From assembly GCF_002735695.1 (NCBI RefSeq), contig NZ_PDZH01000002.1, forward strand, positions 1 to 64,000: DNA of 64,000 bases, read 5' to 3'. Below the pieces are notes generated by a model, which was not told the origin of the DNA, ran no database searches, and saw only the letters and a list, made by a program, of their open reading frames with translations. Source of the stretch: Chitinimonas sp. BJB300. GTDB lineage: Bacteria; Pseudomonadota; Gammaproteobacteria; Burkholderiales; Chitinimonadaceae. Both the position numbers and the translations under genes were made by a program. Positions 4,876-47,103 of the stretch are shown here, in pieces. Every line of letters starts with the position of its first letter. The stretch's first letter is position 1.

Positions 4876-5021
4876 TAAGAACCTGTTTACGATCTTGCTG
4901 CGCAACCGTGATCAGGGCTCATGTGCTGCTCGAAAGCCTCATGTACCTATGTATATTCCGGTTTCTGCGCTGCGCTTCACCCCGCTGACGACTGCTCGCG
5001 ACAGATTGTAAACAGGTTTTA
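4876..5021 (+). repeat. Dispersed MITE-like repeat, family B, copy B1
   Basis: About 146 bp bounded by the inverted repeats TAAGAACCTGTTTACGATC and the complement-like GATTGTAAACAGGTTTTAA, with no coding capacity. The interior (GTGATCAGGGCTCATGTGCTGCTCG) recurs at 28325-28472 and 40863-40978, and inverted at 42984-43119. It lies between glgX and the S41 protease gene, both on the same strand, so a transcript reading through would carry it as a long imperfect hairpin. Confidence 0.85.
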
Positions 5022-42586: not shown

Positions 42587-42983
42587 TCGGAAGCTCCTGA
42601 TTATCTTTTGTTGCGTCAGTTGATGGCGGATTGGCAGGACGCTTTAACCCACGTTACCTGTACAGGAAATTAGGACAGGCGCAAGCGTGCTATCGGCAGT
42701 CCATTGTTCGGCGCGAATGAATGCAGGCTGCATTAGGGAAATCCCGGGGGTTAATTTGAAAAGCATGAAAACTACGTGCCCACGGTCAGCTAATTGGGTG
42801 TCAAACCGCCGGCTAAACCGCACCTATGAAGGGTTTCCGGTGTTCTTTTCAGTAGTGGATGTACTTTGGGCTTACAGCGTCGAACGGGACATTTCGCATC
42901 AGATTTTGTTGCAAATATACAAATTGTTGCTTTTTTGTTATTGAAACTGATGTGAAATTTCGCGAGCTAACCAAAGACAGCCT
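42587..42983. other. Upstream region of the porin gene
   Basis: About 400 bp of non-coding DNA containing the porin ribosome-binding site (AGGAG at the left edge, minus strand) and an AT-rich tract near 42900-42950 (TTTGTTGCAAATATACAAATTG). No certain gene is seen; short frames here have no recognisable content. The porin promoter is expected within the first 150 bp. Confidence 0.45.
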
Positions 42984-43119
42984 TACAACTGGTTTACGAT
43001 CTGTCGCGAGCAGTCGTCAGCGCAGCGCAGAAACCGGAATGTACGCTGGTACATGAGGACTTCGAGCAGCACATGAGCCCTGATCATGGCTGCGCAGTAA
43101 GTTCGTAAACAAGTTCTTA
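42984..43119 (-). repeat. Dispersed MITE-like repeat, family B, copy B3 (inverted)
   Basis: About 136 bp in the opposite orientation to B1: TACAACTGGTTTACGATCTG at the left and TTCGTAAACAAGTTCTTA at the right, with GAGCAGTCGTCAGCGCAGCGCAGAAACCGGAAT and GCAGCACATGAGCCCTGATCATGGCTGCGCA between. Directly after the right TA a second tip (TAGAACTTGTTTTAC) begins, probably a remnant of another copy. Confidence 0.85.
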
Positions 43120-43258
43120 GAACTTGTTTTACCTCGCTTGGTTTGGGACTAAGCCTTGTTGACGTTACCTAGCGTGCTACAGGCGGCATTAGTCGTAAGC
43201 ACAGGACTTTGGCTTAGGCGAGACGGGAGGGAGAATACCAGTCAGGCAGCAGATGGCT

Positions 43259-44035
43259 TCAATAGAGCCCGGCGGGTTCAATCAGCGGCAGCCGCTCGCC
43301 CGGGTCTTGCCGATAAAATTGGCGCAGTTGCTCGTAAATGGCTGGGTATTGGTCGTGCAGCAAGTGGGGGAGTTCGAAGAAGTATTCGGATAGCACCGCA
43401 AAAAATTCAGCAGGATTCTCAGCGGCGTAGGGGTCGATGGAAACGGCCTCACCCTGTGCGATTCGTCCTGAAAAATCGGCAAAGCCTGCTTCAAAGGCGC
43501 GTGTCCAGTCGGCAGCGTGCATGCTGGCATGCAGGGGTGGAAAGCCATTGGCCGTGCCATTCATCATATCGAGCTTGTGCGCGCATTCATGGATGACAAC
43601 ATTTCTGCCGTCCAGAGCCGGCCCGCGTTGGGCATCGGGCCAAGCCAACAATATAGGGCCATCCTGGCGTGCTTGGCCTGCTATTACCCATTCACCTTCA
43701 TGCACCAGTCCGGCTTGGTCGTGCCAGGGGATGCGGCTGACAAATGCCGTGGGGTAAAGAATGATTTCTTTCCAGTCGGCATAGGCCTTGTCGCCCAGGT
43801 TGATAATGGGCAGGCAGGCTTGCGCGGCAACTTGCAGCAACCGGCGTTGGCTCAGGGCAAAGCCTTGTACGCCGTGGAAGACCTTGTGGGCGAGGAAGTG
43901 ACGCATGCGGGCTTCCAGCCGCCACCATTCACAGTCACTTAATCCTGCGAGCAATGGCATTTGCCGGCCCAGTTCGGGCCAGGCGGGGTTGGCGAGCGGA
44001 TCGGCCGGAGGGGTGCGGCGCAACAAGTTCAGCAT
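43259..44035 (-). CDS. mtfA: Zinc-dependent peptidase, MtfA/M90 family
   Basis: The 258-residue protein has the zinc motif NVVIHECAHKLDMMNGTANGFP (HECAH) and a following NPAEFFAVLSEYFFELP supplying the third Glu ligand, as in MtfA. In E. coli MtfA cleaves peptides and binds the glucose PTS repressor Mlc; no Mlc is seen here. The N-terminal ACEWWRLEARMRHFLAHK-like segment is also typical. It begins 29 bp after the bufferin gene bufC on the same strand and may be transcribed with it, which is an unusual partner for a bufferin operon. Confidence 0.9.
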   Translation of the reverse strand: MLNLLRRTPPADPLANPAWPELGRQMPLLAGLSDCEWWRLEARMRHFLAHKVFHGVQGFALSQRRLLQVAAQACLPIINLGDKAYADWKEIILYPTAFVSRIPWHDQAGLVHEGEWVIAGQARQDGPILLAWPDAQRGPALDGRNVVIHECAHKLDMMNGTANGFPPLHASMHAADWTRAFEAGFADFSGRIAQGEAVSIDPYAAENPAEFFAVLSEYFFELPHLLHDQYPAIYEQLRQFYRQDPGERLPLIEPAGLY

Positions 44036-44064
44036 GAGTACTATCCAAGTTTGGCAACTGGACC

Positions 44065-44871
44065 TTAGATGCTGGCGGGGTGGGTAATCTCAACTACCGT
44101 TTGTAGGTTGCTGATCCAACCATCGTGCAGCCATTGGCTTAACAGTGCAACGGCGCGATTGGGTGCTTCATCGGCGGAATGCCAAGCCAACAAGGCTGCG
44201 CAGGCATCGCCGAAGGGTTGCCCGGCCTGCATACTCAGGAGCAAAGCCGCTTCATCGTCTGCCAACGATCGATAGCAAGGCTGTAAGGAGTCGCGCCATA
44301 TTGCCCAATAGCTTGGTATGGTTTGCGGGTCTGGCGGAGCCTCATCGGCATCCAGCGCGCGCCAAATCGCCAGCGTATTCCAGTTGAACGCCATTACGCT
44401 CAGGCTGGGATGCCAGTTGGGTTGTATTTCCTGCCAGTCTTCATCTGCCAAGGTACTGAGGATGGCTGGACCAGGTGTGGAGGTGTCGGCTGCATCGAAG
44501 GCGAGCCCCAATGCCCACTCGAAACGCGCCAACTCGGCGAAGGCTGGGACATCGGCATAAGGCGTCTGATTGTCGAGCAGCACCGCTAGCTGGTCACCAA
44601 ACCAACGGATATTCGGCTGACGTGACGGTTGGGTGTCAAGATAGCGCCGTGTCAACGCCAGAAAATCGTCGTCACCTAACAACAAATGCAGCTTGGGATA
44701 GTTGCTGCGCAGGGCCTCGTCCAGCCGCAAGAGGTAGGCGTCCGCATAGATGCCAATTCGAATAGGGCGTGGTACAGCTGCGGTTTCCAAGATCAAGTCA
44801 TTCAGCATGTCACTGCCATGGCGGATAGTCTGCGCCACCCTTTTTTGCAGACGGGCCAGTTGGGTATTCAT
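44065..44871 (-). CDS. bufC: Bufferin-maturation partner protein (DUF2063, BufC/HvfC-like)
   Basis: The 268-residue protein matches the DUF2063/HvfC pattern: an N-terminal helical part with [46 protein letters not shown], then a second helical bundle with [15 protein letters not shown] and [20 protein letters not shown]. In related systems (MbnC, BufC) it presents the precursor peptide to the iron oxygenase BufB. It overlaps bufB by four bases (ATGA), so the two are translationally coupled, as expected of a heterodimer. Confidence 0.87.
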
Positions 44872-45698
44872 GCAACCAACTCCGTGGTGATAGCGCGGGC
44901 GATGTCCAATTCCGCCAGTAGTGTGGAAAGCGGTGGGATGTTGTCGTCACGTTCAATCATGGTGGCTACGCCGGGAAAGCGTTTGGCCGCGGTACGGTAT
45001 AGGTCCCACACGGCAGGCGGGACAGGTGCGTCATGTGTGTCGATAAGGTATTGGCCTCGATTCGCATGCCCTGCCAGATGAATCTGCCGCACGCGCTCGA
45101 CCGGTATGGCTGCCAAATAGGTTTGGGGGTCGAAGCCATGATTAACGCTGCTCACGTAGATGTTATTGACGTCAAGCAGCAGCAAGCAGTCGGCCCGGCG
45201 GGCGATTTCGGTCAGGAAATCCCACTCTGGCATCTCGTCGATGTTGTAGCTCAGATAGCTCGATACGTTCTCGATGAGCAGACGCTGACCAATCGTATCC
45301 TGTACGCGCGCAATCCGGTCGGCGACATGAGTAATCACGGCTTCGGTATACGGCAGCGGCAAGAGATCGTGTAGGTTGACGCCATCCACCCCGGTCCAGC
45401 ACAGGTGGTCGGACACCCACATTGGTTCCACCCGGTCGACCAATGCGCGTAATGACTTGAGATAGGTGGCATCCAATGGGTCGGTACCGCCTAGCGACAT
45501 GGCGACGCCATGCAGCGCCATAGGGTATTCAATCCGTAGGCGGTCCAGAAAATGCAGGGGTTTGCCGCCAGGGAGTAAATAGTTGTCTGTCAACGCTTCC
45601 AGCCAGTCAACGCAGCCGGGTGTGGTCAACAAGTCTTGATAATGGTCAGGGCGCAAGCCCAGACCAAAGGCCGGGCTAGGTGTTTTAGGGGCATTCAT
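44868..45698 (-). CDS. bufB: Multinuclear non-heme iron oxygenase (DUF692, BufB/MbnB-like)
   Basis: BufB-type enzymes modify Cys residues of bufferin precursors to thiooxazole-type rings. The 276-residue TIM-barrel protein carries the metal-ligand segments: [82 protein letters not shown] and [10 protein letters not shown]. These supply the His, Asp and Glu ligands of the iron cluster. The start at 45698 is preceded by a poor ribosome-binding site; the frame is open to 45749. It follows the precursor gene bufA by 200 bp that can fold into two hairpins. Confidence 0.92.
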
Positions 45699-45823
45699 GG
45701 GAAGGGAGAAAGCTGACAAGCTACAGGTGCGTGCTCCATCGGAGAGCAAATCATTTCACCAAGGAAGACACGATAGGCCTTGTGAAGGTTGATGGTCTTT
45801 TGGAATCAAACCTTGGCAAGGTT

Positions 45824-45898
45824 GGATGCAGCACAGAATTGACCGGTACATTGGTACACGGAGACTTTCTGCTGCATCCATGTCCTGCAGCAGCAGGA
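45824..45898 (-). promoter_or_regulatory. Two stem-loops between bufA and bufB
   Basis: On the minus strand, right after the bufA stop, TCCTGC-TGCT-GCAGGA forms a short hairpin (45883-45898). Next GGATGCAGCA (arm at 45870-45879) pairs with TGCTGCATCC (arm at 45824-45833) as an exact 10-bp repeat enclosing 36 bases that contain a further small palindrome. No T-run follows. Such structure between precursor and enzyme genes could slow or partly end transcription, or protect the bufA message so that precursor exceeds enzyme. Confidence 0.5.
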
Positions 45899-45899
45899 C

Positions 45900-46151
45900 T
45901 TACTCTTTCACTTCCTTGCCGCCTTTTGTTTTGCACTCTTTGGCGCTGGCTTCTACCCAGCCATGGCCTTTGCAGCTGTTTTGGCCCTTACAGGCGTTTT
46001 CAGCTGTCTTGCAGCTCGACGTTCCTTTGCAGCTGTTGATGCCTTCGCACTTCACTTTTGCATGCTCTTTTTCGGCGGCAAGTGTTGGGGTAGCGCTAAG
46101 TGCAAGGGTGGCAACTGCAGCAGCGGCAAAGGCGGCGGAACTGAATTTCAT
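45900..46151 (-). CDS. bufA: Bufferin precursor (BufA2-type Cys-rich secreted peptide)
   Basis: ATG 46151 has AGGAGA seven bases before it. The 83-residue product has a signal peptide cleaved near TPTLAAE, then a mature Lys-rich peptide with six Cys (35, 41, 47, 54, 60, 73). Five of them are followed by Lys (CKG, CKT, CKG, CKG, CKT), in the pattern GINSCKG, SSCKT, NACKG, QNSCKGHGW. This is the hallmark of one class of bufferins (often called BufA2), ribosomally made copper-binding peptides matured by BufB and BufC before export. The exact class is from memory. The modified residues cannot be told from sequence. Confidence 0.85.
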   Translation of the reverse strand: MKFSSAAFAAAAVATLALSATPTLAAEKEHAKVKCEGINSCKGTSSCKTAENACKGQNSCKGHGWVEASAKECKTKGGKEVKE

Positions 46152-46284: not shown

Positions 46285-47103
46285 TTAGGCAATAAACACA
46301 TCCATCTGTTCTGCGGGTAGGTCTGTCTTGGGCGAAGGCTGATGGTTAGCCAGCTGCCAGCGGATAATCTTCAGTTCCCCCTCAATGGTTTCTACCAGTG
46401 CTGTGAGGCTTTCCACCCAATCCCCGTCGTTACAATAGAGGACGCCGTCAATCTCACGCATTTCGGCTTTGTGGATATGCCCGCAAATCACGCCATCCAG
46501 CCCACGTGTCTTAGCCTCTCTGGCGACAGCCTCTTCGAACTGGCTGACGAAGCTCACTGCTTTCTTTACTTTGTGCTTTAAAAATTGCGAGAGTGACCAA
46601 TACGGCAAACCCAGTTTGCCGCGGATATGGTTGAACCAGCGATTGAGCTTGAGCGTGATGGTATAGGCATGGTCGCCCACAATCGCCAGCCAACGTGCGC
46701 ACTGGATCACGCCGTCAAACAAGTCGCCATGCAGCACCAGAAAACGGCGGCCGTCAGCCATGGTATGGATCAACTCATCCTGGATGTCGATGCCACCAAA
46801 TGCGAGACCGATAAACTGCCGCACCGCTTCGTCATGGTTGCCTGCGATGTAAACCACCTGCGTTCCTTTACGCGCTTTGCGCAGAATCTTCTGCACCACA
46901 TCGTTATGTTCCTGATTCCAGTACCATGTGCGTTTCAAGGCCCAGCCATCGATGATGTCGCCCACAAGATAGAGATGATCGGACTCGGTATGCCGGAGGA
47001 AATCAAGCAGATAGGCCGCTTGGCAGCCTTGGGTGCCCAAATGTAGGTCCGATATCCAGATAGTGCGAAAATGCTGGCTGGGTTGGTCGCTCACGGTTGT
47101 CAC
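46285..47103 (-). CDS. UDP-2,3-diacylglucosamine pyrophosphatase-like metallophosphoesterase (LpxH-like)
   Basis: The 272-residue protein has TIWISDLHLGTQGC, LVGDIIDGWALKRTWYWNQEHNDVVQKI, VYIAGNHDEAVRQF, FLVLHGDLFDG and VICGHIHKAEMREIDGVLYCNDGDWVESLTALVE. This is the complete set of the LpxH/LpxH2 group, which in lipid A synthesis cleaves UDP-2,3-diacylglucosamine. The spacing (AGNHDEAVRQF, NDGDWVES) fits the LpxH2 side branch more than LpxH itself. True LpxH may be elsewhere, so the exact substrate is uncertain. It is a cytoplasmic, probably membrane-associated enzyme. Confidence 0.85.
   Translation of the reverse strand: MTTVSDQPSQHFRTIWISDLHLGTQGCQAAYLLDFLRHTESDHLYLVGDIIDGWALKRTWYWNQEHNDVVQKILRKARKGTQVVYIAGNHDEAVRQFIGLAFGGIDIQDELIHTMADGRRFLVLHGDLFDGVIQCARWLAIVGDHAYTITLKLNRWFNHIRGKLGLPYWSLSQFLKHKVKKAVSFVSQFEEAVAREAKTRGLDGVICGHIHKAEMREIDGVLYCNDGDWVESLTALVETIEGELKIIRWQLANHQPSPKTDLPAEQMDVFIA

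Follow-up and report, generated by a model that had tools for sequence, protein, structure and literature searches.

A canonical Buf2-type bufferin operon, probably seated within an older lpxH-mtfA gene neighbourhood, in Chitinimonas sp. BJB300

According to the available part of PMC12452194, six Cys residues are conserved in 90% of Buf2 precursors. Cys-Lys precursors are one of three named groups in the available part of PMC13097082, where their BufB enzymes are described as having an Asp instead of a Phe at one site. The locus studied here lies in a window of 64,000 nucleotides (contig NZ_PDZH01000002.1, positions 1 to 64,000) from Chitinimonas sp. BJB300. It is an ordinary Buf2 operon, a further representative of a copper-defence system that is widespread, and its first-pass annotation as a bufferin operon is borne out by matches to both BufA2 and MNIO_BufB above the curated cut-offs.

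All genes of the locus are on the minus strand. The precursor gene bufA (45900..46151; ATG at 46151, 83 aa), found as an ORF and by the NCBIfam model NF050166, is followed by bufB (44868..45698), encoding an MNIO (DUF692-type) maturase, and by the gene of its DUF2063 partner, bufC (44065..44871), which overlaps bufB by 4 nt. The listed bufB ORF begins at TTG 45749; alignment of relatives favours the ATG at 45698, and because the start was set there, the bufA-bufB gap (45699..45899) amounts to 201 bp. Strong predicted stem-loops occupy this gap from just past the bufA stop codon. Next comes mtfA (43259..44035), which encodes an M90 zinc peptidase with a HECAH motif; the spacing of 29 bp between bufC and mtfA given in the first-pass annotation was reproduced from the ORF coordinates. 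On the bufA side, the operon is flanked by a gene for an lpxH-like metallophosphoesterase (46285..47103), the other edge of the presumed older lpxH-mtfA neighbourhood. Its product matched Metallophos families in Pfam, yet stayed under the NCBIfam LpxH cut-offs.

Additionally, positions 42982-43120 of the window carry a dispersed repeat of some 130 bp whose 21-nt ends are imperfectly inverted copies of each other (81%). Among 145 candidates in the same genome, at least 40 other places of substantial length resemble it at 80-86% identity, one of them within the window at 4876-5013, and there is one short match in addition; the repeat is possibly a MITE-like element. It matched the Xanthomonas sRNA family sX9 of Rfam with 32.2 bits, below the gathering threshold of 44. 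This was the sole Rfam match up to an E value of 0.1, and none fell in the operon.

The BufA protein scored 98.2 bits against the NCBIfam BufA2 model (NF050166; cut-off 60), and its N-terminus, judged by eye, resembles a Sec-type signal peptide. Counting in the ORF translation confirmed six Cys residues, five of them followed by Lys, as first described. The repeated S/N-x-CK unit that had been proposed around these pairs holds for four of the five Cys-Lys pairs and fails for one. The idea that the precursor is unusual was not borne out, given the BufA2 score and six Cys residues, a number typical of Buf2; a new precursor type was ruled out by the match to the BufA2 model over its cut-off.

Like BufA, BufB was assigned above threshold, with 375.6 bits against MNIO_BufB (NF050167; cut-off 310) and 360.6 bits against PF05114 (cut-off 25). 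BufC matched DUF2063 (PF09836) with 63.8 bits (cut-off 27.2) and scored 57.8 bits against the NCBIfam HvfC model, under the cut-off of 142. In the window BufB, an Asp (D252) stands right after the ERD motif. This residue is Asp in 71 of 87 Buf2-type BufB proteins, the remainder having Ala (11) or Gly (5), and in none of nine other MNIOs of the family. We read the D252 column as the site described in the available part of PMC13097082, equating the two via the numbering of that paper (Asp251) rather than by alignment to FonB. The BufA2 score, the published six-Cys class, the Cys-Lys group and the Asp of BufB together mark the precursor as canonical Buf2. Other MNIO genes were also seen: two weaker matches are located on contig C155 of the same genome, and loci L014 and L015 (genomes G003 and G006) contain an additional, long-branched MNIO with an LEWDGNIP motif, preceded in L014 by a 172-aa Cys-rich ORF.

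The absence of a DoxX-like membrane protein, also reported in the first-pass annotation, holds for the ORF list and for the window proteins scanned against NCBIfam (seven) or Pfam (five). In 80 related loci, a profile built from two DoxX-like ORFs detected such an ORF in 10, some of these matches looking doubtful; the search reached up to 3.5 kb ahead of bufB and 4.5 kb past it, a range that was complete downstream in 60 and upstream in 67 of the loci. Since a DoxX-like ORF accompanies so few of the related loci, its absence here is nothing special.

The gene neighbourhood was compared in seven genomes of the genus (G000-G006), six of which carry buf2. The MtfA protein of the window scored 261.3 bits against Peptidase_M90 (PF06167; cut-off 26.2) and, with 197.1 bits, stayed under the cut-off of 400 set for the NCBIfam equivalog of the DgsA anti-repressor MtfA. 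In six of the seven genomes, that is, in all six with buf2, the operon has the lpxH-like gene on one side and mtfA on the other, so that the adjacency of buf2 and mtfA is non-random within the genus. Its orientation differs: bufABC is on the same strand as mtfA in G000, G001 and G002 and on the opposite strand in G003, G005 and G006. In G004 there is no buf2 at this place; here 1.4 kb separates the lpxH-like gene from mtfA, which share a strand, and one gene was recognised in this space. Likewise, in G007, from another genus, both genes are on the same strand about 0.15 kb apart without buf2. G009 has mtfA and no lpxH-like match within the 13 kb taken; G008, a genome 87% complete, has Buf2 and no mtfA match.

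A gene on the strand opposite to mtfA, which may be DUF3617-like, adjoins mtfA in G001, G003, G004, G006 and G009; the examined stretches of G000, G002, G005, G007 and G008 did not reveal it. It separates bufC from mtfA in G001, and a relative of it sits between bufA and mtfA in G003 and G006. In G002 (L024, 5541-6286), the mtfA match is split over two frames, by decay or by sequencing error, and bufA, bufB and bufC are each in one piece. Scans for promoters and terminators gave no more sites than shuffled sequences, and inspection by eye revealed no recognisable operator upstream of bufA in the genus (the regions of G003 and G006 were misplaced, a Met within the signal peptide having been used as the start). 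The short gap between bufC and mtfA contains no terminator-like site, and cotranscription of the two genes is therefore possible in this strain.

Beyond the genus, the order was sampled with 150 genomes, 20 of which had a BufA2 match over the cut-off, three of these within the genus. Among the 17 BufA2-bearing genomes outside the genus, 16 carry mtfA, and in none of the 17 does mtfA lie within 10 kb of bufA2; the shortest distance, 16 kb, was found in G088 at a contig end. No mtfA match was present among the named BufB loci examined, which were the best 80 of at least 568, several of them short. Thus the adjacency of mtfA and bufC in relatives, a survey of which had been suggested in the first-pass annotation, fails outside the genus. 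Matches to the lpxH-like gene (E up to 1e-60) and to mtfA occurred together in 52 of the 150 order genomes; the two genes start within 10 kb of each other on one contig in seven of the 52: four of the genus and three (G013, G062, G106) of one other family, the latter without a BufA2 match over the cut-off. The linkage was hence seen in two families only. In the other 10 genomes with both genes on one contig they are at least 23 kb apart, and in 35 of the 52 they are on different contigs; because of this, and because many assemblies are drafts, the linkage may be undercounted. Since the lpxH-mtfA neighbourhood exists without bufferin genes, buf2 probably lies inside an older interval. MtfA as a general bufferin partner was ruled out, the adjacency having been seen only in the genus among the genomes and loci sampled and the lpxH-mtfA pair occurring without buf2.

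The two orientations of buf2 raise the question of its history. They could go back to two arrivals, in which different Buf2 operons reached the lpxH-mtfA gap separately, instead of one arrival followed by an inversion, and we put the chances of this at about even. The window BufB shares 78-81% identity with the codirectional set and 57-59% with the inverted set, and the LpxH-like protein is 82-86% identical to its seven counterparts in the genus and sample, except for that of G007 (78%). In a BufB tree of 96 rows the two sets fall into different clades (SH-aLRT 88 and 80-99). Two arrivals are suggested because BufB, and likewise BufC, splits into codirectional and inverted sets while MtfA joins G000 with G005 (93/90); BufB joins G000 with G001 and G002 (100/100). 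On the other hand, a single clade of the six BufB proteins was not rejected by the AU test (p-AU 0.295), support is weak at several forks, and the one in the MtfA tree remained below the starred level of the tool.

We also studied the RNA folding potential downstream of bufA. In the window, 45750-45905 folds at -56.7 kcal/mol (z -6.0), and the first 70 nt past the bufA stop codon reach z -4.2; the gap sequence 45750-45899 has no second match in the same genome. The survey covered those 85 of the 87 Buf2 loci in which bufA could be recognised, using 70 nt past the bufA stop and dinucleotide-preserving shuffles; at the named loci (the best 80 of at least 568), bufA was recovered in 78 of 80 by tblastn and in 59 of 80 by the ORF filter. 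The median z was -3.0, and 66 of the 85 loci, counts that are not independent because the loci are related, fell below z -2. Single-base shuffles reached a simple stem score of 20 in 8.8% of cases, the loci in 67 of 85, where the stem started at a median of 13 nt past the stop codon. Only eight of the 85 stems have a T-rich tail (at least five T in the next eight bases), and a plain intrinsic terminator is therefore not the general reading. We infer that the stem past bufA is a partial terminator or a 3' stabiliser that raises the precursor over the enzyme. A broader proposal, evenly poised in our judgement, is that the stem-loop acts generally in Buf2 operons, and in some Buf1 operons, as a control element of diverse sequence by which the metal-binding precursor is kept in excess over the iron enzyme; expression may respond to copper or to processing at this point.

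That the stem-loop is instead an ordinary result of intergenic composition, and not an element of expression, seems rather unlikely to us. The modest stem of the window, which scores 19 and thus just misses the cut-off of 20, would fit such an origin, as would the failure of three of six genus members (G001, G003 and G005) to reach z -2; a low value (z -3.0) was likewise obtained for the window's control inside bufB. However, the effect persisted against dinucleotide-preserving shuffles and was missing from four control regions, where z below -2 was found inside bufB in 8 of 85 loci, downstream of bufC in 13 of 79, ahead of bufA in 12 of 78 and at the bufA end in 5 of 78. The Buf1 loci of the family likewise argue against a mere compositional effect: z was below -2 past the precursor gene in 8 of 11, and a CCCGTTTT run occurs within the 70 nt in 7 of 11. 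As a separate observation, a GC-rich hairpin and a CCCGTTTT run are located just past the Buf1-like precursor gene in L002, L011, L016, L017, L018, L019 and L021; such hairpins with a CCCGTTTT run resemble an intrinsic terminator within the operon. By term search, neither hairpin nor terminator nor stem-loop is used in the main text of PMC12452194, PMC12538549 or PMC13097082.

It is very improbable that MtfA is a working bufferin part within the genus, degrading unmodified or misfolded precursor and kept adjacent by selection despite flipping or replacement of the cluster: its position next to buf2 in all six buf2 genomes, in two orientations, and the 29-bp gap of the window would fit, but in G004 and G007, which have no buf2 there, mtfA lies near the same lpxH-like gene. 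In three genomes it is on the strand opposite to buf2, in G001 an opposite-strand gene stands between it and bufC, and in G002 its match is broken. It is linked to buf2 in none of the 17 order genomes that carry BufA2 outside the genus and in none of the 80 named BufB loci (the best 80 of at least 568), and by term search is named neither in the main text of PMC12452194 (MtfA, M90) nor in that of PMC13097082 (MtfA, protease). A functional link between mtfA and the bufferin is thus unlikely. Of the two roles first envisaged for mtfA, peptide turnover left no sign, and the fallback, that the gene is unrelated, is better supported by the neighbourhood comparison.

Altogether, we hold it very probable that the locus is a canonical Buf2 operon inside an older lpxH-mtfA neighbourhood and that it operates as follows. 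BufA2 would be synthesised in the cytoplasm. If the analogy to characterised relatives holds, BufB together with BufC would oxidise some Cys residues in the Cys-Lys motifs of BufA2, yielding thiooxazoles. The modified BufA2 would then be exported and, as the literature on the family suggests, bind copper in the periplasm. The stem-loop past bufA probably lets the output of precursor exceed that of the enzyme. The buf2 operon would have come to sit within the older lpxH-mtfA gene neighbourhood, and mtfA would accompany it by inheritance of the site, with readthrough from bufC as a possible event in this strain. The tempting link between MtfA and the bufferin is weakened by the neighbourhood comparison, and a cassette in an old interval shows that gene neighbourhoods can mislead. 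The stem-loop survey offers a modest new lead, a simple testable idea on the balance between peptide and enzyme in bufferin operons.

With regard to known systems, MtfA acts with Mlc in E. coli. The window protein shares the Peptidase_M90 domain and the HECAH motif with this M90 peptidase, but falls short of the DgsA anti-repressor equivalog cut-off (197 vs 400 bits). Systems with EGKCG precursors (oxazolin, fontiphorin, gonophorin) have in common with the locus an MNIO with a DUF2063 partner and a Cys-rich precursor, as far as the available part of PMC13097082 describes them; according to the same part they differ in having Lys-Cys repeats and Phe, not Asp, at the BufB site, and the EGKCG motif is absent from the bufA ORF. 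Buf1 (DUF2282) uses the same MNIO enzyme family, whereas its precursor has four conserved Cys residues (available part of PMC12452194). The genome itself contains a second MNIO locus (L002; C220 24448-28257) with an 88-aa Buf1-like precursor, typed by eye, and the MNIO of this locus belongs to a different clade from the window BufB. The closest counterpart is Buf2 (Buf_6/12Cys; BufA2, NF050166), with which the locus shares the six Cys residues, the Cys-Lys pairs, the gene order bufABC and, as far as can be judged by eye, a signal-peptide-like N-terminus; nothing essential differs, and the locus adds its long bufA-bufB gap (201 bp) and mtfA as a neighbour.
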